Part shown: one piece after another, positions 26,540-55,326 of the stretch
Layout: the number at the start of each line of letters is the position of its first letter
How positions within the stretch are numbered: position 1 is the stretch's first letter
IMG/VR virus record: IMGVR_UViG_3300025401_000022
Coordinates: 1 to 64,000 of that record
Length of the DNA: 64,000 nt
Direction: 5' to 3' (one strand)
Source: a virus
The notes under the pieces: generated by a model
The model's input: only the letters and a program-made list of their open reading frames with translations
Databases searched by the model: none
What the model was told of the DNA's origin: nothing
Position numbers and translations under genes: made by a program

Positions 26540-26558
26540 GCGTATTAGTAGGAGTATG
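26540..26558 (+). promoter_or_regulatory. GCGTATTAGT promoter-like motif (AGTATG variant)
   Basis: GCGTATTAGTAGGAGTATG: the core is perfect, and position +13 onward reads AGTATGAA. The same AGTATGAA follows the copy at 32495. The ATG of the next gene is part of the motif, so the mRNA may be leaderless or the start may use the overlapping AGGAG at very short spacing. Confidence 0.6.
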
Positions 26559-26864
26559 AACAAGTACGTTTACCAAATCCAAGGCGCACTGGAAGACAGC
26601 AACCAAAACCTACTAGGGTTACGAGTGCTGGTGTGTGACCTGCACAATTTTGATTCAGTAGACGTACCAATTGAGGTTTTAGATAAAGAGACAGCTAAGT
26701 ACTTAGCTTTTCGTCTAAAACTAACAGACGGCGCCTTGGTTATCCAAAAACTACCCAATGGCGTCATTAACAAAATTAGACTGCTATTAGGCAAATACCT
26801 AGATAAGTGGGTATTGGAAAACTTTCATGGCAATATTGGCAACACAAAAGGTGTTAACCCTTGA
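26556..26864 (+). CDS. 102-aa protein at the head of the rightward region
   Basis: Start at the ATG at 26556 (MNKYVYQIQGALEDSNQNLL); an upstream in-frame codon at 26538 lies inside the promoter-like motif. Beta-rich N-terminal half, helical C-terminal half. No family recognised. It overlaps the Hint-like gene by 38 bases. Confidence 0.6.
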   Translation: MNKYVYQIQGALEDSNQNLLGLRVLVCDLHNFDSVDVPIEVLDKETAKYLAFRLKLTDGALVIQKLPNGVINKIRLLLGKYLDKWVLENFHGNIGNTKGVNP

Positions 26865-27819
26865 CTATTGGAAAATAGCGCAGGACATCAGACCGGGTGA
26901 CATTGTATTTGACAGACTGGGCCGCAAGGTCCGGGTAAAGCTCGTCCACCCCCTGGACAAACGCGCATGTTACCGAGTCACGTTCCTAGATGGAACCTCA
27001 GTGGCTGGGGATAAAGACCTCAAATTGCCAATTGAAACGCCAAAGTACCGCAAAAGGACTTGGGAATACAAAGGCAAATTCCAATTTCGCAGGCCGCTAT
27101 CCAATCTCTCCCTTGGAACGCTGTCTGAAATGGAACTGATTAACAAGCACGGTAGGCTTATGTACAGCGTACCGACCGCTGGACCGTTAGAACTGCCCCA
27201 TAAAGACCTGCCAGTGCCGCCGTTTGTGTTTGGGTTGTGGTTTTTCTCTAAAAGAAAAGACGGAACCATAAAAATTCCAGAGAAACACTTTGATTTTATT
27301 GTGGAAAAACTAAAAGACTACGGCTATATACCAACATCTTGGCGTGATCCCATCAAAAAACGCCGGGTGTACAGCACAAAGCCAACTGTCATGTCGCACT
27401 TGGCGCCCAATGTGCCATACAAAATCCCAAACAACTACCTGTTAGCCAGCCCAGAGCAACGTCTTGAGCTGCTTAGTGGGATTATGTATGGAAAACCAAA
27501 TCAATATAACCAAAAGTTAGATAGATTTCAGTTTAGCTCCAAACATTTACCAACAGTCAAACAAATTCAGTACCTTGCTGAGACGCTTGGCTGTAAAACT
27601 TTACTTGAGGGACCCAATCCATTATCAGGATACACGGTCTACATCAAAACAAAATTAAAACTCATGGAACATCAGACCCCAGCGCCAATCAAAGTGCGAC
27701 AAAACTGGAGAATGATTACCAAAATTGAAGAAATTACACCACAGGCGTGCGTTCACATCGAATTAGATGGCGACGATAGCACGATGTTGGTAGAAGAAGG
27801 ATTTATTGCATGCCTTTAA
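26827..27819 (+). CDS. Hint (intein-like) protein with degenerate LAGLIDADG-type region
   Basis: 330 aa. Residues 8-60 follow the Hint N-terminal block: KVLTLDYWKIAQDIRPGDIVFD, then CYRVTFLDGTSVAGD. Around 130 (FVFGLWFFSKRKDG) and 213 (RLELLSGIMYG) are the two places where a DOD endonuclease has GLxxGDG and GLxDADG, but the catalytic acids seem replaced. The end (KIEEITPQACVHIELD, LVEEGFIACL) fits the C-terminal Hint blocks without the usual His-Asn. The first-residue Cys is missing too. Likely a non-splicing relic or a repurposed protein, overlapping the terminase start by 10 bases. Confidence 0.6.
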   Translation: MAILATQKVLTLDYWKIAQDIRPGDIVFDRLGRKVRVKLVHPLDKRACYRVTFLDGTSVAGDKDLKLPIETPKYRKRTWEYKGKFQFRRPLSNLSLGTLSEMELINKHGRLMYSVPTAGPLELPHKDLPVPPFVFGLWFFSKRKDGTIKIPEKHFDFIVEKLKDYGYIPTSWRDPIKKRRVYSTKPTVMSHLAPNVPYKIPNNYLLASPEQRLELLSGIMYGKPNQYNQKLDRFQFSSKHLPTVKQIQYLAETLGCKTLLEGPNPLSGYTVYIKTKLKLMEHQTPAPIKVRQNWRMITKIEEITPQACVHIELDGDDSTMLVEEGFIACL

Positions 27820-29255
27820 CACCCGAAGATAAAAAAGAACTGATCAAGTTCGCAGCCGATCGACCACACTGGCCCAAACCAGAGCTTGACGCCGCAATAT
27901 GGCGCATCACTTGGGCTAAACAAGCGTTAGCACACCAACAAGAACCCGAAGATGGAGAGTATGACACGTTCCTTATGCTTGCAGGCCGCGGCTCTGGCAA
28001 GACACACACTGCTAGCCATTGGATTGGCATTCGTGCTTGGCGCTTCCCCGGCACTCGCTGGCTTGTCACCGCCCCAACCTCTAATGATATTCGTGCAACT
28101 TGCTTCGAAGGAGACTCCGGTCTTCTCAATATCATACCCAAGAGCCTTATACGAGATTACAACAAGTCCCTCTTTGAAATTACCCTCATCAACGGATCAA
28201 TCATTCAGGGGATTCCAGCTTCAGAACCAGAACGTTACCGCGGTAAACAATACCACGGAGCTTGGTTCGACGAGCTATGTGCATTCGACTATCTTGACGA
28301 CGCATACGACGGCGTACAGTTCACCTTACGACTTAAAGATCCAAGAATACCCCGTGTCCAGCAGATCATCACCACCACCCCTAAGCCAAGGGAGCTCATT
28401 GTCGACCTCGCCGAAGGTAAAGTCGGTGGCGACGTCTACATGGTCAACGCGTCCTCGTTTGACAACCGGGAAAACCTGTCAGAAACGTTTTTCAAACAGT
28501 TAGAGACATACGACGGCACCGACATTGGTCGTCAGGAGATCTACGGTGAGATTCTGGACCCAGAGTCCGCCGGTATTATTAAACGTAAGCAGTTCAAGAT
28601 GTGGCCTGCTGATAAGCCCACACCAGAGCTGGAGTATGTCCTAGCTTCCTACGACCCCGCTACATCGGAAAAGACACACAACGACCCCACTGCTTGCACA
28701 GTATGGGGAATCTTTGAACAACAAGACGGTGGCACATGCGCAATCCTTCTTGATTCCTGGGACAACCACCTTTCCTACCCAGAACTACGCCGCAAAGTAG
28801 TAAATGATTTTAAAGAGGTTGTATACGGCGCAGATAATGAGTTTGCTAAGGGCAAAAAGGCAGACCTCATCCTCATGGAAGACAAATCTGCTGGTATCTC
28901 ACTAATCCAAGAGCTCAGAGGCGCAGGAGTGCCAGTCCAAGGTTACAACCCCGGCCGCGCGGACAAAGTGCAGCGCCTAAACATCGTAGCACCCCTGGTA
29001 GCTAAGGGAAAAGTGTTCATTCCAGAAGACCCCAAAAAGCCCGGCGAGTTTGCTGACTGGGCAAAGCGTTTTCTGCGCCAAGTCTGTTCGTTCCCTGAAA
29101 TGGGTGGCCATGATGACTATGTGGATTCCCTATCACAAGCCCTTCGTATCCTACGAGACGATGGTTGGCTGCAGTTAGACTACCTCCCAGCTAGGGATTA
29201 TGACTACGCTGACGATGATGTACGCAAGCGTTTTGCCAATCCCTACGCCCAATAA
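27810..29255 (+). CDS. terL: terminase large subunit
   Basis: 481 aa. ATPase: Walker A GRGSGKT (59-65) and Walker B AWFDE (151-155), with ITTTPKP as coupling motif. Nuclease: ASYDPAT (about 279-285), LMEDKSAG, and GGHDDYVDSLSQAL near the end supply the acidic metal residues. It packages DNA into the prohead through the portal. No intein interrupts it, but an intein-like gene overlaps its start. The small subunit is not recognised; the 102-aa gene at 26556 is one candidate by position only. Confidence 0.92.
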   Translation: MPLTPEDKKELIKFAADRPHWPKPELDAAIWRITWAKQALAHQQEPEDGEYDTFLMLAGRGSGKTHTASHWIGIRAWRFPGTRWLVTAPTSNDIRATCFEGDSGLLNIIPKSLIRDYNKSLFEITLINGSIIQGIPASEPERYRGKQYHGAWFDELCAFDYLDDAYDGVQFTLRLKDPRIPRVQQIITTTPKPRELIVDLAEGKVGGDVYMVNASSFDNRENLSETFFKQLETYDGTDIGRQEIYGEILDPESAGIIKRKQFKMWPADKPTPELEYVLASYDPATSEKTHNDPTACTVWGIFEQQDGGTCAILLDSWDNHLSYPELRRKVVNDFKEVVYGADNEFAKGKKADLILMEDKSAGISLIQELRGAGVPVQGYNPGRADKVQRLNIVAPLVAKGKVFIPEDPKKPGEFADWAKRFLRQVCSFPEMGGHDDYVDSLSQALRILRDDGWLQLDYLPARDYDYADDDVRKRFANPYAQ

Positions 29256-29296
29256 GGGCGGATACGTCAAAAACAGCGTATTAGTAAATATAAGGG
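29246..29296 (+). promoter_or_regulatory. GCGTATTAGT promoter (strong copy) preceded by hairpin
   Basis: GCGTATTAGTAAATATAAGG at 29276: ten-base core, three more bases, TATA, then AGGG. Upstream, CGCCC-AATAA-GGGCG (29246-29260) forms a small hairpin at the terminase stop. The portal ATG is 39 bases after the motif. The 13-base, TATA, purine layout equals that of T7-type promoters. Confidence 0.7.
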
Positions 29297-29334
29297 TTGA
29301 GTTAGGCCCACCAAATTCCAAAATGACATAATCT

Positions 29335-32241
29335 ATGGCACAACCACAATTACCTATCCAAGCTGGCGGCAATTTGCCTGGTCTTGATCGTGAAAATGAT
29401 ATTCAAGATGCAAAACAGCAAGACGCTGACATGGAAGAGTACGAAGACATACTGGGTTTAGACTCCGACGAAGTAGAACAAGAAATAATTGAACTGGACG
29501 ATGGTTCGGTGGTGGTTAACTACGTCGAAAAATCTAGCCCACTAAAAAATCCAGAGTTCTACGCAAACCTTGCAGAAGTGTTTGATGAGCAGACATTAAA
29601 TTCACTCTCCATCGAATACCTTGACTACATTGATGTAGACAAGGAGGCACGCAAGCAAAGAGATAAGCAATATGAAGAAGGACTTCGTAGAACGGGCCTT
29701 GGTAAGGACGCTCCTGGTGGTGCTACTTTCGACGGCGCTTCTAAAGTTGTTCATCCCGTCATGGCCGAGGCTTGTGTTGACTTCGCAGCTTCCGCCGCCA
29801 AAGAGCTATTACCATCAGACGGCATCGTCAAGTCCAACATTAAAGGAAACGACGACAAAACCAAAGAAGAAGTCGCAGAACGAAAAGTCGAGTTTCTTAA
29901 CTGGCAATTAACCCAACAAGTCCCTGAGTTCCGCGATGAGATGGAGCAGTTGTTTACTCAATTGCCGCTTGGTGGGTCACAGTACCTTAAATGGATGTAC
30001 GATGAAGAACAAGCTCGCCCAACGTGCGAGTGGGTTCCAATTGACAACATCATTTTACCTTACGCCTCAACAAACTTTTACACAGCGCAGCGCGTTACTG
30101 AGCAACAAGACATCACTGGCGATGAATACCTAAAACGTATTGATGCTGGTCTGTATCGTGACTTGGATAATTTAGAGTATACCTCTGACGCTCCGCTTAA
30201 TGACCAAACTAAGAGTAAAGCAGCAAACGATAAGATTGAAGGTATTGATATGCCTTCTAAAAATATCGACGAGTTACGCAGAATTTATGAAATCACTTGC
30301 TTTATGCGACTGGAAGCTGATCCGGAAACAGAAGGTAAACGTGCACCATACACTTTGACCATTGACGAATCAACAAACAAGGTATTAGCCTTGTACCGCA
30401 ACTGGGATGCAAATGATGAAAAACGTGAAAAACTGGACTGGATTGTTGAGTTCAAGTTCATCCCTTGGCGTGGTGCTTATGCTATTGGTCTCCCCCATCT
30501 TATTGGCGGTCTCTCTGCTGCTCTCACTGGTGCTCTACGTGCTCTGCTTGACGCTGCTCATATCAACAACAGCCAGACGTTACTTAAACTCAAAACTGGA
30601 AGAGTGTCTGGACAATCTGATCGAATTGAACCAACTCAAGTAGTTGAAGTAGAAGCGGGCGCTGGCGTGACTGACATTCGTCAGATTGCTATGCCAATGC
30701 CATTTAACCCACCTTCAAGTGTATTGTATGATTTGCTTGGTTGGTTAACACAAGCTGCTAAAGGTGTTGTTACTACAGCTGAAGAGAAGATTGCTGACGC
30801 TAATAGCCAGATGCCAGTAGGCACAACCCAAGCTCTGATTGAGCAGGGTGCCAAGGTATTCTCTAGCATTCACGCACGCTTACACCGCAGCCAAGAAAAA
30901 TCACTGGCCATCATCTCACGTATCAACCACTGGTACTTGCAAGAGATGGACAACCAGTCCGGTACTGAAATTGAGGTACGTGACTTTGCGTATAACTCAG
31001 ATGTTCGCCCAGTATCCGACCCTAACATTTTTTCTGAGACACAACGTCTTGCTCAGAATCAAGCCCTCCTACAGATGGCAGGCACTGCACCTCCAGGAAT
31101 GTTTGACATGCGCGCAGTATACAAACGCGTACTCAAGCAATTAAAAGTTCCTGAGATGGAAGAAGTACTGCCAAACCCACAAGGCGCCAACGAATCCAAT
31201 CCGGCCTTAGAGAACGTCTCTATGACGATGGGACGACCCGCTGCCGCCTACCCCGACCAGGATCATATTGCACACCTTAAGATTCACTTAGAGTATGCAC
31301 AAAATCCTGCGTACGGTGGTAACCCTATCATTGGCCCAATCTTTGCGCCGCACGCACTTGAACACATCAAGCAACACTTGACACTGCACTACTTGCAATC
31401 TATGCGCTCTTATGTTGCCCAGGCTTCCGGCGGCGAAGATGTACTCAAACTACACCAAGAACAGCCACTGGATCAAGAAGCCCAACAAGCCTTGGCACTT
31501 GCTTCCCAAATGGTTGGCCAAGATGCACAGCAAACTATTGGACCATTCCTACAGCAAATTACTGGTCTGGCTCAGAAAGTATCACAAGCTCAACAACAGC
31601 AACAACAAACTATGCTTATGTCTGATCCAACTGCTGCGGCAATTGTTAAGACCCAGACAGCTGAGACTCAACGTAAGTTGCAAGAAGCTCAGGCTAAAAT
31701 GCAGCTTGATACTCAGAGCATGCAACAAGATTATCAAATTAAGATTGCAGAGCTACAACAGAAAGTTCAAGAGTTGCAAGCTAAGTACAGCACGCAGACT
31801 AATATTGATAACCAACGCAACGCCACAGACATTGCAATGGCTAACATCAATAATGCTGCAAAAGAGCGTGTTGCCATGATTTCAGCTGGTACTCAGATGG
31901 ATCAGCTACAAACAAAACTAGAAGCAGATCAAAATCAATCTGCTATGGAAGCTATCCAAGCCTCTGACCAAGATATTCGTCAGCATGGTTTAGCAATCCA
32001 GCAACAAGCATTCGAGCAACAAGCTCAACAAGTTCAACAACAAATTGAGGCACAACAAGCCGCTCAACAGCATCAACAAGGTTTAGCACAGGCCCAACAG
32101 CAGCATGCAATGGAGATGCAGCAACAGGACCAGCAACACCAACAGGGTTTGGCACAAGCCCAGCAGATGCACGAACAGCAAATAGCCCAAATGCAAGAGC
32201 AACAAGCTCAACAACCACAACAACCCACTGAAGGACAATAA
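29335..32241 (+). CDS. portal protein with long Gln-rich C-terminal extension
   Basis: 968 aa, well beyond the roughly 725 aa of P22 portal. Residues about 60-640 are the portal body (YLDYIDVDKEARKQRDKQYEEG, GASKVVHPVMAEACVDFAAS, LIGGLSAALTGALRALLDAAH, GTTQALIEQGAKVFSSIHARLHRS as fragments). From about 730 the chain is a Gln/Ala-rich helix with many QQAQQ and QHQQG units, likely a long coiled barrel inside the capsid. It forms the dodecameric DNA gate. ACAAAATGACATAATCT precedes the ATG without a strong ribosome site. Confidence 0.85.
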   Translation: MAQPQLPIQAGGNLPGLDRENDIQDAKQQDADMEEYEDILGLDSDEVEQEIIELDDGSVVVNYVEKSSPLKNPEFYANLAEVFDEQTLNSLSIEYLDYIDVDKEARKQRDKQYEEGLRRTGLGKDAPGGATFDGASKVVHPVMAEACVDFAASAAKELLPSDGIVKSNIKGNDDKTKEEVAERKVEFLNWQLTQQVPEFRDEMEQLFTQLPLGGSQYLKWMYDEEQARPTCEWVPIDNIILPYASTNFYTAQRVTEQQDITGDEYLKRIDAGLYRDLDNLEYTSDAPLNDQTKSKAANDKIEGIDMPSKNIDELRRIYEITCFMRLEADPETEGKRAPYTLTIDESTNKVLALYRNWDANDEKREKLDWIVEFKFIPWRGAYAIGLPHLIGGLSAALTGALRALLDAAHINNSQTLLKLKTGRVSGQSDRIEPTQVVEVEAGAGVTDIRQIAMPMPFNPPSSVLYDLLGWLTQAAKGVVTTAEEKIADANSQMPVGTTQALIEQGAKVFSSIHARLHRSQEKSLAIISRINHWYLQEMDNQSGTEIEVRDFAYNSDVRPVSDPNIFSETQRLAQNQALLQMAGTAPPGMFDMRAVYKRVLKQLKVPEMEEVLPNPQGANESNPALENVSMTMGRPAAAYPDQDHIAHLKIHLEYAQNPAYGGNPIIGPIFAPHALEHIKQHLTLHYLQSMRSYVAQASGGEDVLKLHQEQPLDQEAQQALALASQMVGQDAQQTIGPFLQQITGLAQKVSQAQQQQQQTMLMSDPTAAAIVKTQTAETQRKLQEAQAKMQLDTQSMQQDYQIKIAELQQKVQELQAKYSTQTNIDNQRNATDIAMANINNAAKERVAMISAGTQMDQLQTKLEADQNQSAMEAIQASDQDIRQHGLAIQQQAFEQQAQQVQQQIEAQQAAQQHQQGLAQAQQQHAMEMQQQDQQHQQGLAQAQQMHEQQIAQMQEQQAQQPQQPTEGQ

Positions 32242-32468
32242 TGGCAACTAAAAAATCAGCTGAAGACCAATTAGGCTTCCGCAAAGCATACAAAATGACT
32301 GGCACCCCTGGCTACGCTGGCGGTCCTGGTGAGACAACTATCGACAAAGGCGCTTCAGGTTCTAAGCGTGCTAACAATGCAGTACTTAACCAAAACAAAA
32401 TGGCTAAGTCACCTAAAGTTGGCCCAGGTAAAAACCTTAACGAAATCGAAGGCGGCAACTTTTATTAA
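32241..32468 (+). CDS. 75-aa small head-region protein
   Basis: Overlaps the portal stop (TAATGG). Polar, Gly/Lys/Asn-rich (MTGTPGYAGGPGETTIDKGA), probably flexible. No family recognised; by position it may be virion-associated. Confidence 0.6.
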   Translation: MATKKSAEDQLGFRKAYKMTGTPGYAGGPGETTIDKGASGSKRANNAVLNQNKMAKSPKVGPGKNLNEIEGGNFY

Positions 32469-32475
32469 TATTTGG

Positions 32476-32513
32476 GGCGGATTTATCCGCCACAGCGTAT
32501 TAGTAAAAGTATG
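32476..32513 (+). promoter_or_regulatory. hairpin plus GCGTATTAGT motif (AGTATG variant)
   Basis: GGCGGA-TTTA-TCCGCC (32476-32491) lies between the stop of the 75-aa gene and the motif GCGTATTAGTAAAAGTATG (32495-32513). As at 26540, the ATG of the next gene is the end of the motif. The hairpin has no T-run, so it may separate transcripts only partly. Confidence 0.6.
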
Positions 32514-32702
32514 AAAGACTTTATTAGTGAAATTATCGGTCGCGTAAGGACTGAGATACAAAATCATGCGGAAACCGTCACCGCCGGCACTAACATCAAC
32601 TCGTTTGATGATTACAAGCAGTACGTAGGCATTATTCAAGGTCTGCAAATGACTTTAGATATTGTCAACGAAATTCTGACGGAGAATGACGACGAATCGT
32701 AA
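32511..32702 (+). CDS. 63-aa conserved head-region protein
   Basis: MKDFISEIIGRVRTEIQNHA, then SFDDYKQYVGIIQGLQMTLDIV and an acidic end. I recognise this type of short helical protein as common between portal and capsid genes of podovirus-like phages; its role is unknown. No ribosome site: the ATG touches the promoter-like motif. Confidence 0.65.
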   Translation: MKDFISEIIGRVRTEIQNHAETVTAGTNINSFDDYKQYVGIIQGLQMTLDIVNEILTENDDES

Positions 32703-32723
32703 GATTCAGAAAGGGATTGCCGG

Positions 32724-33164
32724 ATGGCGATTGATTTTAGAGAACAAGACGAACCAGATTTACGAACAGAACTTGAGTGTTTCCCTGACGTAGACCCTGG
32801 AGTCGAGATTTTAGGTGACCGAGTACTTGTGCAGTTACGCAGGGAAAAGGTAACCAGTAAAGGCGGTATAATCCTAGTGGATGAGACCAGACAAACCTTA
32901 CGTTTTAACGAAACAGTAGCTAAAGTACGAGCAATTGGACCCTTAGCATATAAGAGCCCAGAAGATTTAACCCCTTGGATTGAAGGTCCTTGGTGTCAAG
33001 TTGGCGATTTAGTTCGCACAATCAAGTACGGTGGTGATCGTTTCGTAGTGCAGCCCGACGATGATGGCGCGCCTGTGGTGTTTATTACATTACAAGCCCG
33101 TGAAGTGATCTCCAAGATCAAATCATTCGAAGCAGCACAGAAAATGAAAGCGTTTGTAGACTAA
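32724..33164 (+). CDS. phage GroES-like co-chaperonin
   Basis: 146 aa. Residues about 29-112 follow the Cpn10 fold: ILGDRVLVQLRREKVTSKGG, IILVDE (base of the mobile loop), NETVAKVRAIGP, CQVGDLVRTIKYGG and DRFVVQ. T4 gp31 is a known phage GroES substitute that adapts host GroEL to fold the capsid protein; scaffold and capsid genes follow here, which fits. An N-terminal acidic lead and a C-terminal helix (SKIKSFEAAQKMKAFVD) are extra. Confidence 0.75.
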   Translation: MAIDFREQDEPDLRTELECFPDVDPGVEILGDRVLVQLRREKVTSKGGIILVDETRQTLRFNETVAKVRAIGPLAYKSPEDLTPWIEGPWCQVGDLVRTIKYGGDRFVVQPDDDGAPVVFITLQAREVISKIKSFEAAQKMKAFVD

Positions 33165-33185
33165 TAACTTTGTAGAAAGTAAAGA

Positions 33186-34157
33186 ATGGCAAAGAAAGAC
33201 GACGACCATGTTCCAATGAAGGAACAGGAAGATGGCACACTGGTAGCTAAAATAGATTTACCAGAAGAAATTGAAGACCACGAAGAAGGTGGTCATGTAG
33301 AAGCAGAAGACACCCGCAGTGATGAAGAGCGTGAAGACGACGAAGCAGCCGAAGAAGGCGAAACCGACGAAGAACGTGAAGCAATCCGCGAGGCCCGTAG
33401 AGAAGAGCGTAAACTCAAAAAAGAGTTAAAGAAGCAACGTGAAATCTCTGCTAAGAACAAGATTACAGCACTTGAGCGCCGCAATGCCGAACTGGCAGAG
33501 CGTCTAGCTAAGGTTGAAAGCACTACAGTATCTTATCAATTTGCACAGATTGACAAGGCTATCGAAGACGAAGCCACACGTGTCGAATACGCAAAGATGA
33601 AGATGCTACAAGCAGCACAATCTGGCGACGCAGCCGCTCAAATTGAGTATTTGGAACAGTTGACAGACGCTAAACAGCGTTTAAAACAAGCCGAACACTA
33701 TAAGAAACAACAAGTAGAGCAAGCTAAAGTACCAAAAGAAAACGTACCTAATCAGATTAATACTGAAGTACAAGCCAACGCAACAAAATGGCTTAAAAAG
33801 AACTCTTGGTATGATCCACAAGCTCGAGACACAGATAGTAGAATTGCAAAGGTAATTGACCAAGAACTAGCAGCCGATGGTTGGGATCCAGCAGATCCCG
33901 AGTATTGGGATGAGCTAGACAGTCGTTTGCAGTCTCGTTTACCCCACAGATACACTTCAAAAGGAGGCTCTGTGAAACGAGCAAACGCATCAACATCCGG
34001 CCGTACTGCCGCTACAAATAGCGCAAAACCCGGAACCATCACATTGAGTCGTGATCGTGTACAAGCGATTAAAGACGCTGGTGCATGGGATGATGTAGAG
34101 AAACGAAACAAAATGATCCGCGCTTATGCGTCGTATGATCGTCAAAATAAAGGTTAA
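33186..34157 (+). CDS. capsid scaffolding protein
   Basis: 323 aa. Acidic N-terminus (EGGHVEAEDTRSDEEREDDE), long charged coiled coil (about 75-190), and a basic C-terminal part (RYTSKGGSVKRANASTSGRT) ending in a helix. This charge layout and the position before the capsid genes are typical of scaffolding proteins, which guide prohead assembly and then leave. Confidence 0.78.
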   Translation: MAKKDDDHVPMKEQEDGTLVAKIDLPEEIEDHEEGGHVEAEDTRSDEEREDDEAAEEGETDEEREAIREARREERKLKKELKKQREISAKNKITALERRNAELAERLAKVESTTVSYQFAQIDKAIEDEATRVEYAKMKMLQAAQSGDAAAQIEYLEQLTDAKQRLKQAEHYKKQQVEQAKVPKENVPNQINTEVQANATKWLKKNSWYDPQARDTDSRIAKVIDQELAADGWDPADPEYWDELDSRLQSRLPHRYTSKGGSVKRANASTSGRTAATNSAKPGTITLSRDRVQAIKDAGAWDDVEKRNKMIRAYASYDRQNKG

Positions 34158-34162
34158 TTATC

Positions 34163-34717
34163 ATGGCAAACAACAGAATCAAACGTGACTTAGATGATCG
34201 CTTAGCCGATCGAGTTACCGCAACAAAAGAACGGATCGCTTCTGAGGATCCAAACGAATTAGCAAAAAAGGAGCGTGTAGCTGCGTTCCGCGATAAATGG
34301 CAAAACAGTGCATTACCTGATTTGCCAAACGGGATAATTCCCGGCTTTCATTTGTGCTGGTTATCCACTACAAATAATTATGACAGTATCGACAAACGTA
34401 TGGCGTTGGGTTATGAGCCAGTTAAAGCCTCAGAATTAGGAGTAGGCTTTGAAGGACTAGGCAAAATGAGCTCGGGCAAGTTTGAAGGCTGTGTTAGCTG
34501 TAATGAAATGGTTCTCTTCAAGTTACCAGAAGAAATCTATCAAGAAGTGATGAAAATGTTGCACCTTGAGGATCCCCTTGAGCACCAACGTAATATCACC
34601 GCGCAAGTTCGGAGCACTGCTCAAGAAGGCAAAGGTGGTAGATCAATTCTTGAAGGTGGTATTCTGGAAATGGAAAAGGAAGCCGCAAAAGCAAACAGTA
34701 ATGTTCGCTTCCAATAA
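34163..34717 (+). CDS. 184-aa head-region protein
   Basis: Charged helical start (RIKRDLDDRLADRVTATKER), then a compact middle with PGFHLCWLSTTNNYDSIDKR and GCVSCNEMVLFKLPEE, and a C-terminal helix. It resembles conserved head proteins of marine and freshwater podovirus-like phages, without a proven role. It lies between scaffold and capsid-type genes. Confidence 0.65.
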   Translation: MANNRIKRDLDDRLADRVTATKERIASEDPNELAKKERVAAFRDKWQNSALPDLPNGIIPGFHLCWLSTTNNYDSIDKRMALGYEPVKASELGVGFEGLGKMSSGKFEGCVSCNEMVLFKLPEEIYQEVMKMLHLEDPLEHQRNITAQVRSTAQEGKGGRSILEGGILEMEKEAAKANSNVRFQ

Positions 34718-34746
34718 CATTCTTCAAAAATAACAAAGGAAAATAA

Positions 34747-36351: not shown

Positions 36352-36371
36352 TAAACCCCCTCGTAGCACAG

Positions 36372-36406
36372 AAAAGCCACCCACAAGGTGGCTTTTTTGT
36401 TTTTTG
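36372..36406 (+). terminator. strong intrinsic terminator after the capsid gene
   Basis: AAAAGCCACC-CACAA-GGTGGCTTTT (36372-36396), followed by more T (to 36406). Ten-base stem with a T-rich end. The next promoter-like motif begins 21 bases later. Confidence 0.9.
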
Positions 36407-36426: not shown

Positions 36427-36447
36427 GCGTATTAGTAAGTATAGGAA
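36427..36447 (+). promoter_or_regulatory. GCGTATTAGT promoter (strong copy)
   Basis: GCGTATTAGTAAGTATAGGA: core, TATA at +13, then GGAAG. It follows a strong terminator and precedes an 85-base leader and the 189-aa gene, the clearest terminator-promoter pair in the window. Confidence 0.72.
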
Positions 36448-41967: not shown

Positions 41968-41992
41968 GCGTATTAGTGGTAGTAGATTAAGG
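41968..41992 (+). promoter_or_regulatory. GCGTATTAGT motif (AGTA variant)
   Basis: GCGTATTAGTGGTAGTAGAT: perfect core, AGTA where the best copies have TATA. It stands 25 bases after the 88-aa gene and before the glycosyltransferase genes, with a T-rich tract and a host-type -10 box following. Confidence 0.5.
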
Positions 41993-47148: not shown

Positions 47149-47429
47149 TGGTTACTCATATAGGAACTGCCCATAGCTTTACTTATGATGGGGCACAATT
47201 AAATATTTACCATGCAAATAAAGGCGAAGGCTTGCCAAAGCATGAACATATTTATAGTCATGCAACTATGTGCAATAGCGGTTCTTGTTTAGTAAGCCTT
47301 GAAGGTCGTAGCTACACAATCAATAAAAATAGCCAACCTTTAAATCTTCCTGCTGGTGAATGGCACGAAATTGAAGCATTAGAAGATGATACAGTATTTG
47401 TAAATGTATTTGCAGAAGGAAAGTATTAG
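47148..47429 (+). CDS. cupin-fold protein
   Basis: 93 aa. LPKHEHIYSHATMCNSGSCL gives His32, His34 and His38, and LPAGEWHEIEAL gives His73: the metal ligands of a small cupin barrel. It might bind a metal or a sugar at the virion or cell surface. It sits between fibre and lysis genes, where its role is unclear. Confidence 0.7.
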   Translation: MVTHIGTAHSFTYDGAQLNIYHANKGEGLPKHEHIYSHATMCNSGSCLVSLEGRSYTINKNSQPLNLPAGEWHEIEALEDDTVFVNVFAEGKY

Positions 47430-47432
47430 GTC

Positions 47433-47666
47433 ATGGATCTCCAAACACTAATTAACACCGTATTGCCACTAATTTGTGTGGCAATTGGATGGTTCTGCAA
47501 AGAACTTTGGAATGCAGTTCAGGAGCTTAAAGATGACGTCTCCAATTTGCGCAATCACCTTTCGGATAACTATGTTCGCAAAGATGATTTTGCAAGTCGC
47601 TGGGATGAAGTTTTAAAAGCGGTTCATCGTATTGAAGACAAGCTAGACATTCTTCGTGATAAATAA
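47433..47666 (+). CDS. small membrane protein of the second lysis cassette
   Basis: 77 aa. N-terminal membrane segment (TVLPLICVAIGWFCKELW) followed by a coiled coil (VQELKDDVSNLRNHL, VLKAVHRIEDKLDIL). It stands where the 76-aa protein (11681) stands in the first cassette, with the order of segments reversed. Function unknown; lysis control is possible. Confidence 0.6.
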   Translation: MDLQTLINTVLPLICVAIGWFCKELWNAVQELKDDVSNLRNHLSDNYVRKDDFASRWDEVLKAVHRIEDKLDILRDK

Positions 47667-47890
47667 TGAACGATATTCTAAAACAGCTGTTGACCGGTAA
47701 AGATAACACAACCTATGATATTGGCCGAGTTACTTGGCTTATTAGTTTAACAGCCGTTATTGGATTGGCTTTTTACGAGGTGATGCACAACACCGTTAGT
47801 ATTCGTGAACTTGCCGAATCCCTTGGAATTGTCTCAGCTGCAGGTGGTGCCAGTGTGGCAATGAAGTCCAAAACAGAACCCGATCAATAA
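47666..47890 (+). CDS. putative holin of the second cassette
   Basis: 74 aa. MNDILKQLLTGKDNTTYDIG precedes a hydrophobic helix (VTWLISLTAVIGLAFYEVM) and a weaker second one (LGIVSAAGGASVAMKS). Paralogue of the 80-aa protein at 12257-12499. Overlaps both neighbours by one base. Confidence 0.6.
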   Translation: MNDILKQLLTGKDNTTYDIGRVTWLISLTAVIGLAFYEVMHNTVSIRELAESLGIVSAAGGASVAMKSKTEPDQ

Positions 47891-48300
47891 TGTTTCCATT
47901 ACCTATATTTACTTATGTCAAAATTGGATTATTTGCTACACTTTTATTTTTGGCTGGCTATACTGGCTTTAGCTTGGAAGCTGCGCGATTCGATCGCTAC
48001 AAGGCGAGCCAACAAGCCCTCACCCAAACGCTCCAGGAAGAACACCAAGCCGCCGCAGACCAAATAAGGAAAGATAAAGATGCTCAAATTGCTACCATCA
48101 ATAACAGCCTCGCTGATGCTCTTGTGCAGCTGCGCAGCCGTCCCAGTCGCGCCCAAGACGCCGCAAATGGACAAGGTGGAACTGGGCTGTCCCTTTCTGC
48201 CGAGGATGCAACTTTTCTTGAGCGGGACGCTGCCAGAGCCGACGTGCTCCGAAGCGCCCTCTCAGCCTGCTACGCCCAATACGACTCACTAAGTAAATAA
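47890..48300 (+). CDS. Rz: i-spanin (Rz-like) of the second cassette
   Basis: 136 aa: MFPLPIFTYVKIGLFATLLF membrane anchor, then a periplasmic helix with IRKDKDAQIATINNSLADAL and QLRSRPSRAQ. Clearly homologous to the protein at 12480-12887. Rz1 is embedded in its second half in the +1 frame. Confidence 0.86.
   Translation: MFPLPIFTYVKIGLFATLLFLAGYTGFSLEAARFDRYKASQQALTQTLQEEHQAAADQIRKDKDAQIATINNSLADALVQLRSRPSRAQDAANGQGGTGLSLSAEDATFLERDAARADVLRSALSACYAQYDSLSK
48080..48292 (+). CDS. Rz1: o-spanin lipoprotein (Rz1-like), embedded in Rz
   Basis: 70 aa in the +1 frame. MLKLLPSITASLMLLCSCAA is a lipoprotein signal with lipobox Cys16 or Cys18; the mature part has TPQMDKVELGCPFLPRMQLF, as in the Rz1 at 12664-12837. 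The C-terminus is Pro-rich (APSQPATPNTTH), usual for Rz1. Confidence 0.85.
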   Translation: MLKLLPSITASLMLLCSCAAVPVAPKTPQMDKVELGCPFLPRMQLFLSGTLPEPTCSEAPSQPATPNTTH

Positions 48301-48310
48301 CCCCCAATTT

Positions 48311-48330
48311 GCGTATTAGTGTAAACTGAC
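48311..48330 (+). promoter_or_regulatory. GCGTATTAGT motif (degenerate downstream part)
   Basis: GCGTATTAGTGTAAACTGAC: perfect core, no TATA at +13 (AACT). It precedes the endolysin gene by 38 bases, with AAGGAGCAAAA as ribosome site. A separate promoter for the endolysin would let it be timed apart from the spanins. Confidence 0.5.
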
Positions 48331-48348
48331 GCAAAGTAAGGAGCAAAA

Positions 48349-48870
48349 ATGAATAAGAAGCTATTTTTGGTAGTATGGTTGTTCACGTTGGTTTGGGTAG
48401 TTCAAAACCTACAGATAACTAAAACAATAGAACGAGACATTGTGGCAATTACAGAATCAACATTCCAGTTTATTACCAACTTTGAGGGTAAACGCAATAA
48501 AGCGTACCGTGACTCCAAGGGCTTATGGACTATTGGCGTTGGTCACCTCATAAAAGCCGATGAAGAGTTCCTAAAGACCATTACCCTGACAGACTACGAC
48601 GTACAAGAGCTATTTAAACGCGATTTAAAGTGGTGTGAAGAGGCTGTAGACGAGTCGGTAAGGGTACCCCTTAACCAGAACCAATACGACGCCCTGTACA
48701 GCCTGTGCTTTAATATTGGCGAGACTAACTTTAAAAAATCCGAAGTAGTCCAGCATATTAACAAAAATGACTTAAATGGTGCGGCAAATGCCTTTTTAAA
48801 CTGGGCAAACCCACCAGTATTAAAAACCCGTAGGAAAAAGGAACGGGAGTTGTTTTTAAGGGCGATTTAG
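48349..48870 (+). CDS. endolysin, GH24 lysozyme, probable signal-anchor type
   Basis: 173 aa. Residues 5-22 are hydrophobic (LFLVVWLFTLVWVVQNLQ). The GH24 catalytic triad is at E46-D55-T61 (FEGKRNKAYRD, GLWTIGVGH). Later NQYDALYSLCFNIG and the C-terminal RRKKERELF match T4/P21-type lysozymes. The N-terminal segment suggests signal-arrest-release export like P21 R21, which does not need a large holin hole. TAG overlaps the terminator stem. Confidence 0.87.
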   Translation: MNKKLFLVVWLFTLVWVVQNLQITKTIERDIVAITESTFQFITNFEGKRNKAYRDSKGLWTIGVGHLIKADEEFLKTITLTDYDVQELFKRDLKWCEEAVDESVRVPLNQNQYDALYSLCFNIGETNFKKSEVVQHINKNDLNGAANAFLNWANPPVLKTRRKKERELFLRAI

Positions 48871-48878
48871 CCCTTTTT
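48858..48878 (+). terminator. intrinsic terminator overlapping the endolysin stop
   Basis: AAGGGC-GATTTA-GCCCTT followed by TTT. The stop codon is in the loop/stem. A strong promoter-like motif begins two bases later. Confidence 0.85.
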
Positions 48879-48879
48879 A

Positions 48880-48900
48880 GCGTATTAGTAGATATAAGGG
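48880..48900 (+). promoter_or_regulatory. GCGTATTAGT promoter (strong copy)
   Basis: GCGTATTAGTAGATATAAGG: core, TATA at +13, then AGGG. It follows the endolysin terminator and leads into the Lys/Gly-rich gene and the second nozzle cassette. Confidence 0.72.
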
Positions 48901-48936
48901 CTGATCACCCGTTTAACCAATAACCTCGAGGAAACC

Positions 48937-49734
48937 ATGGACGATTTCAAAAAACTACCTAAGATGCAGCACTTCAAAGAAGGCGGCTCTGTACAACGCG
49001 AAGTAAAGAACTTCACTAAACGTGACCGTAAGTCCGTGGAAATGGCTGACACAGCCCAAGATAAAAAGATTGTTAAAAAAGCTATTGGTATGCACGATAG
49101 CCAACAGCACGAAGAAAAGACCGACTTGTCTGGCCTCAAAAAAGGTGGCCGCGCTAAAAAAGAAGCTGGTTCAGTTCGTAAGTATAAAACTGGTGGTAGC
49201 GTAACCAATGTATACGAAGCCAAAAAATCATCTGGTGACATTGACAATATCAAAAAAGTAAAAGACATCAAGCCAGCTAAAGCAGCTGCCCCATCTAAAG
49301 CAGCCACAAAGCCAAACTTCAAAGGCTCTGACGTAGCTAAAACAAACAAGCTCCCAGCTGGTGACAAAGACTCAATTAAAAAAGTACCTCCAACTGGCGA
49401 CAAAAAAGCCGCTGCTAAATCTGGCGCTAAAGGTGGCCCTAATAAATACAAGACTGGTGGCGGCGTTAAGAAAATGGCTGTTGGTGGTCCAGCACTACAA
49501 GACCTTATGCAAGCCAAAGAACTTGTGCGTTTAAGAAATGCCCGTAAATATTTAAGCCCAGACCAACAAGGTCAATTTGCTGCCGGTGAAATGCAACAAA
49601 CCCCCGCAATGACTGGCTTAGGTCAACAAGCTCCAGCACCAGCTCCAATGCCTCCTGTGCAAGCTCCGGGCGGTACAAGCCCAGCGGGAGCCATTCCAGC
49701 ACAAAAGCGCGGTGGTAAAGCAGGTAAGTGCTAA
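48937..49734 (+). CDS. Lys/Gly-rich basic protein
   Basis: 265 aa. Repeated short motifs [22 protein letters not shown] and a Pro/Ala-rich C-terminus ([17 protein letters not shown]), ending [11 protein letters not shown]. Largely disordered and strongly basic, so DNA or capsid-interior binding is plausible. GAGGAAACC precedes the ATG. Known to me only as a type seen in uncultured phages. Confidence 0.62.
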
Positions 49735-49735
49735 T

Positions 49736-49903
49736 ATGCCGTACAAATCTGAAAACCAGCGAGCCGCAATGTACGCTGCAGCTGCTGGCAAATCAACCCT
49801 TGGTATCCCTAAAAAGGTTGCCAAGGAGTTTATCAAAGCTGGTCCAGCTTCAAACAAACTACCAAACAAAGTAACTAAGCGAGCCGCTGGCCGCGGAAGG
49901 TAA
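49736..49903 (+). CDS. 55-aa basic protein ([15 protein letters not shown] type)
   Basis: Start at 49736, two bases after the previous stop; the longer frame would overlap. [20 protein letters not shown] and [11 protein letters not shown] form basic helices. The opening [16 protein letters not shown] is a recurring pattern in phage small proteins near neck genes; function unknown. Confidence 0.65.
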
Positions 49904-49904
49904 C

Positions 49905-50975
49905 ATGGCTTATAGCAACACCACTGGCCAGACAACAATCAATGTCGACCAGTTAATCTCCTACGCGTTCCGTGATGCAGGTAAAACTGCAGAAGAAATT
50001 ACGCCTGAGTACATTCAAGCAGGTAAACAGGCTTTATTTTACAATTTACAAAACCTGTCTAACCTTGGTGTTAATCTTTGGCTTTTGGAAAACCAACTGT
50101 ATGGCGCTCTTACACAGCAACAACAGCTAGTACTCCCAAAGACTACTATTGACGTTCGTGAGGCTAACTGGGTTTATATCCAGAACATCCAAGCCTCTTC
50201 ATACCTCCCAATTGCTAATCCAACATCTCCAGCTGCGTTTGATTTAAGCCCAACGCTATCCACAGTGGCGGATACCACTGGATACGCAAACTACTTTGGT
50301 TCTACCTACCAGCAGTCACAGAGCGTATATTACGTTGGTTGGAATGCTTACGCACCAAACACAACACAGACCTATAACCTAGCGTTTGAGTACAGTGATG
50401 ACGGCATAAACTGGTTCTTAAAAGAACAGTTCCCAGCCATCACAATGAGTGACTACCAGTGGCAGTACTATAATATCTCCACCACTGAACCACATCTCTA
50501 CTGGCGCTTGCGTGAGACTGTAGCATCACACTATTCTGTTCGCCAGATTGTGTTCTCTACCAGTCAGCAAGTTATTCCTTTAGCTCGCTTAAACCGCGAC
50601 GATTACTGGAATCTCCCAAACAAACAATTCCCATCTGTTCGCTCTTTGCAATATTGGTACGATCGTACAATTGAACCATCAATGTACCTCTGGCCAGTGC
50701 CAAATAACCCCTATCAAATGTTCCAATTAGTTGTTGAAAAGCAAATGGAAGATGTGGGCTCTTTGACAAATCAAATTTATGTACCAGATCGTTGGATTAC
50801 TTCAGTACAAGCTAGTTTGTCTCACAAGTTGGCGCTACAACTTCCGGGTGTTGAGTTGACTCGCATTCAGTATCTTGAAGCTCAAGCGGACAAATTGTTC
50901 ATGCAAGCCTCTAACGAAGAGCGCGACAAGTCACCAATCTATTTTCAACCTAATATAAGCTACTACACAAGATGA
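49905..50975 (+). CDS. gp4-type tail adaptor (head-completion) protein, second cassette
   Basis: 356 aa. INVDQLISYAFRDAGKTAEE and IQAGKQALFYNLQNLSNLG parallel the start of P22 gp4-type proteins, though divergent from 3081-4070. The middle is a beta insertion (NYFGSTYQQSQSVYYVGWNA), the end a helix with SHKLALQLPGVELTR. It overlaps the next gene by 4 bases. Confidence 0.62.
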   Translation: MAYSNTTGQTTINVDQLISYAFRDAGKTAEEITPEYIQAGKQALFYNLQNLSNLGVNLWLLENQLYGALTQQQQLVLPKTTIDVREANWVYIQNIQASSYLPIANPTSPAAFDLSPTLSTVADTTGYANYFGSTYQQSQSVYYVGWNAYAPNTTQTYNLAFEYSDDGINWFLKEQFPAITMSDYQWQYYNISTTEPHLYWRLRETVASHYSVRQIVFSTSQQVIPLARLNRDDYWNLPNKQFPSVRSLQYWYDRTIEPSMYLWPVPNNPYQMFQLVVEKQMEDVGSLTNQIYVPDRWITSVQASLSHKLALQLPGVELTRIQYLEAQADKLFMQASNEERDKSPIYFQPNISYYTR

Positions 50976-51586
50976 GCGTTATAATGACCTACGACTCGCT
51001 GGTGTTAAACATCCAGCAATATATGGAGCGGAATGATGCTGACTTTGTGGCGCAGATTCCTAATCTAATAGCATTAGCTGAATCGTCTATTGCAGCTGAG
51101 CTTAAAACTTTTTTACAACTTATTGTTGTGGAAACTAATCTTACCTCTAACGTGGCAGTTTTAAACAAACCATCGCGTTGGCGTAAAACTGTATCCATGA
51201 AAATTAATGGTCAACCTGTCTTGTTACGTAGTCAGGATTATATCGCTCAGTATCAATCTGAGTCATCTACAAGCCAGCCGTTGTACTACGCAGATTATGA
51301 CTATAACAACTGGAACTTTGCGCCGGTTCCGGATAAGAGCTATCCAGTAGAAATTATCTACTACGCTGAAATACAACCACTAGACGCGTCTAACCAACAA
51401 AACTTGTGGACATCTATTGCACCACAAGCAATGCTTTATGGCGCGCTGTTGCAAGCTCAAGGGTATTTAAAAGCACTAGACAAATTACCTGTCTGGAAAC
51501 AATACTACACAGACGCAATTGCTGCATTGAAAAAAGAAGACAATTCACGTCGTGTGGATCGCAATACATCGGTTCAGGAACCATAA
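50972..51586 (+). CDS. head-tail adaptor-like protein
   Basis: 204 aa. LVLNIQQYMERNDADFVAQI and IPNLIALAESSIAAELKTFL start a helical adaptor; later NWNFAPVPDKSYPVEIIYYA, then QAMLYGALLQAQGYLK and a final helix. This pattern is that of small phage adaptor proteins bound under the portal. No counterpart is seen in the first cassette. Confidence 0.65.
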   Translation: MSVIMTYDSLVLNIQQYMERNDADFVAQIPNLIALAESSIAAELKTFLQLIVVETNLTSNVAVLNKPSRWRKTVSMKINGQPVLLRSQDYIAQYQSESSTSQPLYYADYDYNNWNFAPVPDKSYPVEIIYYAEIQPLDASNQQNLWTSIAPQAMLYGALLQAQGYLKALDKLPVWKQYYTDAIAALKKEDNSRRVDRNTSVQEP

Positions 51587-51589
51587 TAA

Positions 51590-52858
51590 ATGACTACTCC
51601 AGTTTATACCTCACCCTTTACAGGCACCGTTGTAACTCCAACGGATGTATCTTACTATGCGCTGGCTTTTAATTCAAATACACAGCTTTCTTGGCCCAGT
51701 ACAGTCAATGGTAGCGAAATACCCGCAGCTCGCATCATTGATTGCACTCCTAGCACTGGTGGCTTATCTATTGCTCTTCCTGAAGGTGATCAAGGAACGG
51801 TAGGCGCCGACATTCTGTTTCGTAACCTAGGATCTAGCACCTTTACAGTAACAGATTTTCTCGGTGGTAATTCAGTAACTGTCCCCGCTGGTGTGTCTAA
51901 GTATTTTTACCTCGCCGATAATACTACTGTTGCAGGTACTTGGCACAATGTGACCTTTGGAACTGGCACATCTTCTGCAGATGCAGCCTCCTTGGCTGGA
52001 AATGGTCTAACAACAGTAAATGGTCAACTAGCCACAACACAAAACATTCTTGATGTTTCAGTTGCACCGACATTAACAGACGCCAGTCGTGCAGCAACAT
52101 ACAACTGGACAGCTGGTGTTGGCACAATTAATTTGCCAAGCGTATCCACTCTGTCCCGCGGTTGGTTTATTGCATTTAGAAATAGCGGATCCGGAGCACT
52201 AACATTTGCACCTAGTTCTACCCAGCTAATTAATGGTAAAACTACCATTGTTACAAATCCTGGTGATTCTGGTTATATTTTTTACGATTACAGTTCTGGT
52301 GGATTTATTACCGTTGGTTGGGTAACACCAAACAATGTGGTGTTTACCTCTGCAACTTATGACGTTGATGCAGTTGTTGGTAATACACTTAACTTAGTTT
52401 CCAACGCACCAATTATTCAAACTTATATAGCTCAGTCTGGAACCCGCACACAGAATTTAGCTGTGACATTCCCAGCGATTACCCAACTATATATTTTGGT
52501 TAATAACACTAACCAATCTGGTTATGCAGTTACCTTCCAAAACCAAGGTAGTAGCCAAGCTCCTTTAGCTTTGACAACAGGTAATACTTATACCATATTG
52601 AGCGACGGCGAGTTTTTATACATCCTAAATTCTTCTTCCTCAAGCTCATTTAAAGCTATTAACGGAATCGCTGGCGCACCATCATACTCGTTCCTTAACG
52701 ACAATGCCACTGGTATGTACTTACAGGGAACAAGCATTTTAGGACTGGCAGCAAACGGTACTGAGATTATTGACATCAACGCAACAAACTTGTCTGCCCC
52801 AGTAGTAACAGTAAATGGAAGGCTATACGCAACAACATTTAGTGGCGGAACATTCTAA
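51590..52858 (+). CDS. fibre-like virion protein of the second neck cassette
   Basis: 422 aa, beta-rich. Two modules of the form LPSVSTLSRGWFIAFRNSGSG and FPAITQLYILVNNTNQSG, each a strand-rich unit. The C-terminus (GAPSYSFLNDNATGMYLQGT, GLAANGTEIIDI) is a phrase found in fibres before their tip. Likely part of tail spike or fibre; lies between adaptor and nozzle genes. Confidence 0.62.
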   Translation: MTTPVYTSPFTGTVVTPTDVSYYALAFNSNTQLSWPSTVNGSEIPAARIIDCTPSTGGLSIALPEGDQGTVGADILFRNLGSSTFTVTDFLGGNSVTVPAGVSKYFYLADNTTVAGTWHNVTFGTGTSSADAASLAGNGLTTVNGQLATTQNILDVSVAPTLTDASRAATYNWTAGVGTINLPSVSTLSRGWFIAFRNSGSGALTFAPSSTQLINGKTTIVTNPGDSGYIFYDYSSGGFITVGWVTPNNVVFTSATYDVDAVVGNTLNLVSNAPIIQTYIAQSGTRTQNLAVTFPAITQLYILVNNTNQSGYAVTFQNQGSSQAPLALTTGNTYTILSDGEFLYILNSSSSSSFKAINGIAGAPSYSFLNDNATGMYLQGTSILGLAANGTEIIDINATNLSAPVVTVNGRLYATTFSGGTF

Positions 52859-55018
52859 ATGGCGGCTGATAACCAGCAACAAGATACCTCGCAATACACA
52901 TCAATCTACAGCCTAGCAATTCCGGCTGGGATTAAGCGCGACGGTACCCAATTCCAAAACGATCAATACACCGATGGTGTATGGTGCCGTTTCCAACGTG
53001 GCGACCCTAAGAAAATGGGTGGCTATCGTACACTATTTACCAGCAACGTTGGTATCTATCGCGGCTTGGTATCTCAGCCATACAACGGTGTAAACTATAT
53101 TTTTGCTGGCACTTATCAAGAGCTAGATGTATTTACATGCGGTATTAACTACGGCACTGGTGCGGGGCCATTTACAGCAAACATTTTGCCGGGTACTGTA
53201 CCGTTTACACTTGTTTCTCACACTACAAACACCTTTGTGATTGCTGGTGATGTAAGATCTAGTTTCCCCTCTGGAACAACAGTTATTTTTAACCAAACAA
53301 CTCCAGTAAATTACACTACCACCGGTACTCCAACTTATACATCACCAAATACCACAATAACGGTTACTACAACAATAACTGGCAGCCCAACAACTGTTTG
53401 GTTGAACAACACATCGACTTTTACTGAAGATCCTCAAAATGGTCCATATCGTATTACATGGCAGTTTGACGCTCAGTTTAGCCCACAAGGTGGCAACCTA
53501 GCGCTATTTGCTCATCCGGGCTACAACTTAAACGACATTGATAATGGAGTGCCATCTCAAGTTTTAGTTGGAAACGTTGCACCAACAACCGGAAACACTT
53601 GGACCTTTACTGGCCTGTCTGATAGCGCCGGTGCTAATCCAACATACCAACCAATCAGTGTTGATGGTGGTGTTTGTGTGCTATATCCATTTATTTTTGT
53701 GTATGGCTCACATGGTTATATTGCTAATAATAACGTTAGTAGTACATATCTACAACAGAACTTTTATGATTGGAATGGCCCATTAGCCAACCAAACTAAC
53801 GTATCATCTTCTAAGATTGTTAAGGGCATGCCAATGCGCGGCGGTACCAATTCGCCAGCGGGTTTATTCTGGGCAACTGATAGTTTAATTCGTGTTTCAT
53901 TTAACTCTTCGGCTTCTAGCACCGCAACTACTAGCCAATTTTGGAACTACGACATTGTTTCCAGCCAAATCTCAATCATGTCTTCCAATGCTATTGTGGA
54001 GATGGATGGCGTTTACTGGTGGATGGGTGTTGATCGCTTTTATGCCTATAATGGTAGCGTACAAGTGGTGCCTAATGATAAGAACGTAAACTGGCTTTTT
54101 GACAACATCAATTACACACAACGTCAAAAAGTGTGGGCAACTAAAGTACCACGCTACAATGAGATTTGGTTTTTTTATCCTAGGGGCACGGCTACAGAAT
54201 GTACCGATGCTATTATTTATAATACCAAAGATAAGTTATGGTATGACGCTGGTTCAGCTGTTGGTGCGCAACGCTCTTGTGGTTATACTACAGAGATTTT
54301 CCCAACACCTATTTGGGCTGATTGGAACTACACCCCGTCATTTAGCCAGCCGTATACTGTCATAACGCACCCAGCTAGTTTGCCTGCACCAACAACAGAT
54401 CAAATGTATTTATCTGGCGATGTTACTTCGGTATTTAGTCCTGGTACTATTATTACTTTTGATAAGACAGCAGATTACAATTCCACGTACCAAGTAAGCT
54501 CTTCAGTATATACCATCAATGGTACTATTGGTGCGCCGGGGGTTACCTTGGTAACGTTTACCGAACAGTCTCCAATTACTGTGGCGCCCGGCACTTTGGT
54601 ATACCAGCAGATTGGTGGTTTTACTATTTGGCAACATGAGTACGGCCAAAATGCTGTAGGGTTAAATGGTGAGACTGCGGTGTATTCTAGTATTACTACC
54701 AGCGACATTGGTTGGCTAACCGGTAACCCAAGTCAAGATGGTTTGGTGGGGGTAAACCGCCGTATGCACTTGCGCCGTGTTGAGCCAAACTTCTTACAGA
54801 CTGGCACTATGTCTATGACTATTTTAGGTCGTAAATTTGCGTCCAGCCCAATGGAAGAAGACTCTGGACCATACTACTTCACTCAAGATACTGGCAAGAT
54901 TGACCTTCGTGTCGAGCACCGCTTAATCCGTTTGAAGTTTGAATCCAATGAGATTAACGGCAATTATGAGATGGGTCGTAATCTGATTACCTGCGAATTT
55001 GGTGACGAGCGTCCATGA
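52859..55018 (+). CDS. tail nozzle protein, second cassette
   Basis: 719 aa. Repeated beta-propeller-like segments (WCRFQRGDPKKMGGYRTLF, MRGGTNSPAGLFWATDSLIR, VEMDGVYWWMGVDRFYAYNG, EIWFFYPRG, IIYNTKDKLWYD) and a C-terminal HRLIRLKFESNEI, with two inserted modules at about 118-185 and 500-580. The overall form is that of T7 gp12/P22 gp10-type nozzles. It is unlike the first nozzle protein in sequence. Confidence 0.68.
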   Translation: MAADNQQQDTSQYTSIYSLAIPAGIKRDGTQFQNDQYTDGVWCRFQRGDPKKMGGYRTLFTSNVGIYRGLVSQPYNGVNYIFAGTYQELDVFTCGINYGTGAGPFTANILPGTVPFTLVSHTTNTFVIAGDVRSSFPSGTTVIFNQTTPVNYTTTGTPTYTSPNTTITVTTTITGSPTTVWLNNTSTFTEDPQNGPYRITWQFDAQFSPQGGNLALFAHPGYNLNDIDNGVPSQVLVGNVAPTTGNTWTFTGLSDSAGANPTYQPISVDGGVCVLYPFIFVYGSHGYIANNNVSSTYLQQNFYDWNGPLANQTNVSSSKIVKGMPMRGGTNSPAGLFWATDSLIRVSFNSSASSTATTSQFWNYDIVSSQISIMSSNAIVEMDGVYWWMGVDRFYAYNGSVQVVPNDKNVNWLFDNINYTQRQKVWATKVPRYNEIWFFYPRGTATECTDAIIYNTKDKLWYDAGSAVGAQRSCGYTTEIFPTPIWADWNYTPSFSQPYTVITHPASLPAPTTDQMYLSGDVTSVFSPGTIITFDKTADYNSTYQVSSSVYTINGTIGAPGVTLVTFTEQSPITVAPGTLVYQQIGGFTIWQHEYGQNAVGLNGETAVYSSITTSDIGWLTGNPSQDGLVGVNRRMHLRRVEPNFLQTGTMSMTILGRKFASSPMEEDSGPYYFTQDTGKIDLRVEHRLIRLKFESNEINGNYEMGRNLITCEFGDERP

Positions 55019-55284
55019 CGATTTATGTCAATAAAAACAACCAGCAGTTCTTCCCCTTTGTGCCAGAAATGTCGAGCTGGGAAGACTGGAACGGTAATTT
55101 TATTATTTACTATGGCCAGCTTAATATACCATACAATCCCGAAGAAAATTGGAAAGACACGGCCAGCGTAATTGCCAGTACGTTTACGTTTTCCGCGTTT
55201 CCAGTTCCGACCCCGGATGACTTTGAAAACTGGCAAGATTGGGCTAAAGAAGTCACGCTAATAATCAACGGTAAGAGCCACTAA
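55015..55284 (+). CDS. 89-aa small neck-region protein
   Basis: Overlaps the nozzle stop by 4 bases. MSSWEDWNGNFIIYYGQLNI and DFENWQDWAKEVTLIINGK are Trp-rich. It stands where the 78-aa protein stands after the first nozzle gene. Function unknown. Confidence 0.6.
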   Translation: MTIYVNKNNQQFFPFVPEMSSWEDWNGNFIIYYGQLNIPYNPEENWKDTASVIASTFTFSAFPVPTPDDFENWQDWAKEVTLIINGKSH

Positions 55285-55286
55285 TA

Positions 55287-55326
55287 GGGGCGCAAAGCCC
55301 CAAAAACGCGTATTAGTGTATATAGG
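55287..55326 (+). promoter_or_regulatory. hairpin plus GCGTATTAGT promoter (strong copy)
   Basis: GGGGC-GCAAA-GCCCC (55287-55301), then AAAAAC, then GCGTATTAGTGTATATAGG (55308-55326) with TATA at +13 followed by GGAAC. It leads to the ejection-protein genes, the last motif copy in the window. Confidence 0.72.

Follow-up and report, generated by a model that had tools for sequence, protein, structure and literature searches.

The 64,000-nucleotide stretch analysed here (the window; positions 1-64,000 of the 80,308-base IMG/VR record IMGVR_UViG_3300025401_000022) carries a ten-base word, GCGTATTAGT, that recurs at gene starts and raises the question of what reads it. The original prediction offered two readings, promoters of a phage RNA polymerase with T7 geometry or sites of a phage sigma factor, and the analysis strongly supports the second. 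With a probability of roughly 0.9, GCGTATTAGT would be an extended -10 element for host RNA polymerase in complex with a sigma factor that the phage itself encodes, with a start at A, assistance from GGGC or a palindrome further upstream, a regulon of phage genes and leaderless transcripts from about a third of the sites. A phage sigma regulon of a known kind, new in sequence and layout, is thus our best reading, which would turn an anonymous repeat into the sigma regulon of a freshwater phage group that the searches recovered from environmental contigs alone.

The ten-base core and its geometry

All nine copies predicted for the window lie exactly at their predicted coordinates (Table 1), against a chance expectation of 0.11, and none of 100 shuffled sequences contained nine. 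Counting over the whole 80.3-kb record gave 14 copies, the five beyond the window all being on the minus strand (67696, 70494, 72106, 73765 and 75457), and the reversed word has no copy in the whole record. The sites mark gene starts and are oriented into the downstream gene, as had been proposed. The site at 75457, beyond the window, overlaps the final codons of the preceding gene. Across three genomes two sites were flagged within a called ORF, both ORFs being on the opposite strand and spurious-looking. In the literature six papers contain the GCGTATTAGT string, and judged by title and abstract none of them deals with phage.

Numbering each site from the core start as position 1 places the predicted +1 at position 17, the seventh base past the core. 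All 14 copies of the record have a pyrimidine at position 16 and 13 have an A at position 17, the sole exception being 48311. The same holds for 60 independent sites from relatives fetched by their sigma factor, where position 16 is a pyrimidine in 60/60 and position 17 an A in 57/60. This constancy fits an extended -10 element read by a sigma factor with +1 at the A.

The TATA described for four copies (29276, 36427, 48880 and 55308) and the AGTA described for three (26540, 32495 and 41968) are indeed present, and TATA at positions 14-17 recurs in 13 of the 60 independent sites, in agreement with the layout of 13 bases, TATA and +1 purine of promoters for a T7-type single-subunit phage RNA polymerase. 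T7-type promoters consist of a conserved block from about -17 through TATA to G at +1. Such a block was not found here: different positions are conserved, the T7-like layout is confined to a minority of sites, position 18, which would be the T7-type +1, is not conserved (G in 13/60), and a further element, near -36 and at a fixed spacing, stands upstream beyond the span of a T7-type promoter, leaving the T7 geometry unsupported. Moreover, were +1 at position 18, transcripts of genes whose ATG begins at position 17 would lack the first base of the start codon. The polymerase itself was also searched for, without any PF00940 match in the record and four large relatives (G000-G004), the positive control, T7 itself, matching with E=1e-109; the large ORFs encode structural or replicative proteins or have no known function. 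Since the sites in addition covary with a sigma factor, we regard a T7-type origin as hardly credible and the likeness as superficial.

Table 1. Coordinates of predicted promoters and associated genes in the window
Feature	Position	Strand	Remarks
Promoter	26520..26556	+	GGCC -36..-33; core 26540-26549; predicted +1 26556 = A of ATG (predicted leaderless)
ORF MNKYVYQIQG..., predicted leaderless gene	26556..26864	+	start conserved in both clades
Promoter	29256..29292	+	GGGC -36..-33; core 29276-29285; predicted +1 29292; portal gene at 29335
Promoter	32475..32511	+	core 32495-32504; predicted +1 32511 = A of ATG (predicted leaderless)
ORF MKDFIS..., predicted leaderless gene	32511..32702	+	family recurs in both clades
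Promoter	36427..36443	+	core 36427-36436; predicted +1 36443; upstream, a strong terminator-like stem at 36368-36400
Promoter	41968..41984	+	core 41968-41977; predicted +1 41984
Promoter	48311..48327	+	core 48311-48320; predicted +1 48327; lysozyme gene at 48349
Promoter	48860..48896	+	GGGC -36..-33; core 48880-48889; predicted +1 48896
Promoter	55288..55324	+	GGGC -36..-33; core 55308-55317; predicted +1 55324
Promoter	19130..19146	-	core 19146-19137; predicted +1 19130; palindrome TTCACATTATGAA at 19165-19177 replaces GGGC; primase gene start 19113
Phage sigma factor, regions 1.2, 2, 3	20330..20893	-	longest ORF 20330-20971; conserved start 20893
Protein X, 111 aa	20011..20346	-	start overlaps sigma end; candidate partner by linkage and conservation only
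Protein Y, 65 aa	19817..20014	-	follows X; candidate partner by linkage and conservation only

Joint change of the core and a phage sigma factor

One minus-strand ORF (20330-20971) matches regions 1.2, 2 and 3 of sigma70 and resembles RpoD/RpoS structures by profile and by predicted fold, the structure model having a pLDDT of 73 (medium confidence). The protein ends soon after a QEPTSLD segment that aligns with SigA, sigma proteins of this type ending near 187 aa. For region 4 nothing above the cut-off was found in the record and five relatives, a weak PF04545 match falling inside the sigma factor's own region 3, so that of the features that define the sigma70 family homology is present in regions 2 and 3, but not in region 4. 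Each of these genomes encodes one sigma factor only. Another candidate sigma factor, the 187-aa gp049 of Caulobacter phage RLK, which is encoded close to the primase, gave no match.

Loci were sorted by their best sigma match, near loci being those that match the near type (67-100% identity in the first set) and the far clade comprising loci with a 48-57% identical sigma factor. Exact GCGTATTAGT is present in each of the 31 IMG/VR loci that were initially retrieved through their sigma factor only (67-100% identity); loci with a 48-57% identical sigma factor have no exact copy, and many far loci carry TTGCATTAGT at orthologous gene starts with the same downstream spacing. In near-sigma loci 131 sites are of the near type and one is of the far type, against no near-type and 45 far-type sites in far-sigma loci, a comparison that reflects mainly one evolutionary switch. 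No site was present in the stretch examined of L085 (82% sigma identity, a short contig of 4.8 kb) and of seven far-type loci. By terminase the nearest named phages are MW202545 and Caulobacter phage RLK; their whole records gave no match to the sigma factor, and GCGTATTAGT is absent from 49,958 of 57,457 and 49,967 of 62,366 bases, respectively.

Between the clades the sigma factors differ at residues 128, 131 and 146 in region 2.4/3.0, which, from the alignment with SigA and the sigma70 numbering, we take to be Q437, T440 and H455 of sigma70, the residue aligned with H455 changing from K146 (near) to N146 (far). The single far-type site among the near-sorted loci belongs to L087, whose sigma factor (57% identity) has near-type residues 128 and 131 but N146. 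Far-type sites together with N146 point to residue 146 and its neighbours as a possible determinant of specificity, which, coming from one locus and one main switch, is a lead and not proof. The change from GCGT to TTGC before ATTAGT would be a natural specificity switch with few candidate residues (K146/N146 and neighbours), making sigma-promoter recognition directly testable.

Phage operators are often repeated between genes. The core might instead be the site of another phage regulator, that is, an operator or a processing signal, with transcription starting from host sigma70 promoters. However, the core is not palindromic, a fixed YA resembling an initiator follows it at a distance of seven bases, its sequence varies together with the sigma clade, and sigma70-like sites around the copies are not above chance, which makes another regulator very improbable. 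We therefore retain the phage sigma factor: host RNA polymerase carrying it (20330-20893, minus strand) would recognise GCGTATTAGT as an extended -10 element and start at the A seven bases past the core, and the regulon, spread over both strands, would include genes for the virion, for lysis and for DNA replication.

The upstream element and its candidate readers

GGGC begins at position -19 in 23 of the 60 independent sites and occurs once in total at 21 other offsets. A scan of the collection with the correct spacing returned at least 117 viral stretches, compared with one when the spacing was three bases shorter, and the far-type core at the same GGGC spacing is found in at least 120 stretches. 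A palindrome, TTCA-N5-TGAA, lies upstream in 8/60 sites, none of which has GGGC, its offset placing the centre near -41.

The hairpins reported just upstream of several copies are real at 32495, 36427, 48880 and 55308, and those at 32495, 48880 and 55308 include GGGC, as would be expected if GGGC were an arm of terminator hairpins ending the upstream genes and the promoter consisted of a single element as in phiEco32. Yet a hairpin arm of at least 4 is present at only 7 of the 23 GGGC sites and the GGGC spacing is fixed in both clades, so we consider terminator arms an unlikely source of the element. As part of the promoter, GGGC(G) at about -36 to -33 would assist the extended -10 element, the palindrome centred near -41 taking its place at some promoters.

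A fixed -35-like element raises the puzzle of its reader, given the absence of region 4. Since no region 4 can be recognised in the sigma factor, GGGC is probably read by a separate factor. The genes of proteins X and Y immediately follow that of the sigma factor and, with that of the primase, are the early genes most widely kept across both clades, which makes the two proteins candidates for the missing contact. Domain searches identified no known domain in X or Y, nor did a fold comparison give a match for X. The idea that either protein represents a split-off sigma region 4 was rejected, as no HTH or region-4 match was obtained. A complete two-part system, in which the region-4-less sigma factor would read the extended -10 element and X and/or Y GGGC(G) near -35, with a subset of AUG-start promoters yielding leaderless mRNAs, is a tentative proposal that we hold to be rather doubtful as a whole.

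Predicted leaderless transcripts, related systems and neighbouring sequences

Of 68 independent near sites 15, and of 32 far sites 11, have an ATG whose A falls precisely on position 17, and no other offset examined has as many. The enlarged set, which includes loci fetched via the promoter pattern, gave 99/294 near and 70/235 far sites. Three gene families with ATG at +1 recur, represented by 26556 and 32511 in the window and 75450 beyond it, and at the 26540 site relatives of both clades have the ATG at this position too. The predicted +1 would thus coincide with the A of ATG at roughly one site in three, so that leaderless mRNAs are predicted as a built-in class. Shine-Dalgarno motifs are absent from the ATG sites (0/92 and 0/70), which is partly built in as the core occupies their positions and was not used as evidence.

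In the portal leaders (29292-29320 and relatives) a small hairpin lies just past the predicted +1, and relatives differ in it by paired changes (GGGC/GCCC, GGAC/GTCC). As a general feature of transcript starts a 5' hairpin was rejected, the mean z being near 0 and only some portal leaders having one.

The nearest described systems in mechanism are phiEco32 gp36 and phage 7-11 gp47 (PMC8948821). The former, a sigma factor without region 4, uses single-element promoters, tAATGTAtA (PMC8948821), and has in common with the system here the missing region 4, a short conserved element and sites upstream of middle and late genes. Transcription in phiEco32 starts 6-8 bases downstream of the element, compared with the predicted start at YA seven bases downstream of the core. 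The systems differ in the element (tAATGTAtA versus GCGTATTAGT) and in the upstream element, none being described for phiEco32, as well as in the resemblance of the sigma factor here to RpoD/RpoS regions 1.2-3 and the large predicted leaderless class. Phage 7-11 shares with the system proposed here a bipartite promoter, a phage sigma factor and a start just downstream, but its late promoters read GTAAtg-(16)-aCTA and gp47 has region 4 (PMC8948821), which the sigma factor here lacks. The T4 late system (gp55/gp33/gp45) combines a reduced sigma factor with a separate coactivator, gp33 alone being without DNA binding (PMC7892883). The likeness is functional and partial, comprising the reduced sigma factor and, as a possibility here, a small separate coactivator, which in our case is a guess with X and Y as candidates by linkage.

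From position 1 to about 15450 the window has low G+C, no core and another complement of genes for tail, ejection and lysis functions, hardly any of this part having homologues in two relatives (65.6 and 65.8 kb) with repeating ends, and contigs near-identical to the window end at about 15.4 kb. The first 13-15 kb probably derive from another phage, the assembly probably being chimeric, and were excluded from the argument.

A palindrome, GTTTAAAC, occurs 15-27 times per locus in the early regions of ten loci (L089, L090, L091, L096, L100, L101, L104-L106 and L113), often at gene junctions but also inside ORFs, reminiscent of operator arrays. Far-clade loci contain 256 copies over 418 kb, near-clade loci 4 over 451 kb; considered as a far-clade promoter, the palindrome proved to be an early-region repeat unconnected to the sites described here. 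Just upstream of the 26540 promoter TTTTAGTTATATAG occurs twice, at 26476 and 26508, and the two clades have many copies of TTTTAGTTATA (23 and 12, versus 0 for a control word); TTTTAGTTATATAG/TTTTAGTTATA are a possible early promoter or operator. Finally, two overlapping ORFs at 26827-29255 match different parts of large terminase profiles and possibly represent a split terminase.
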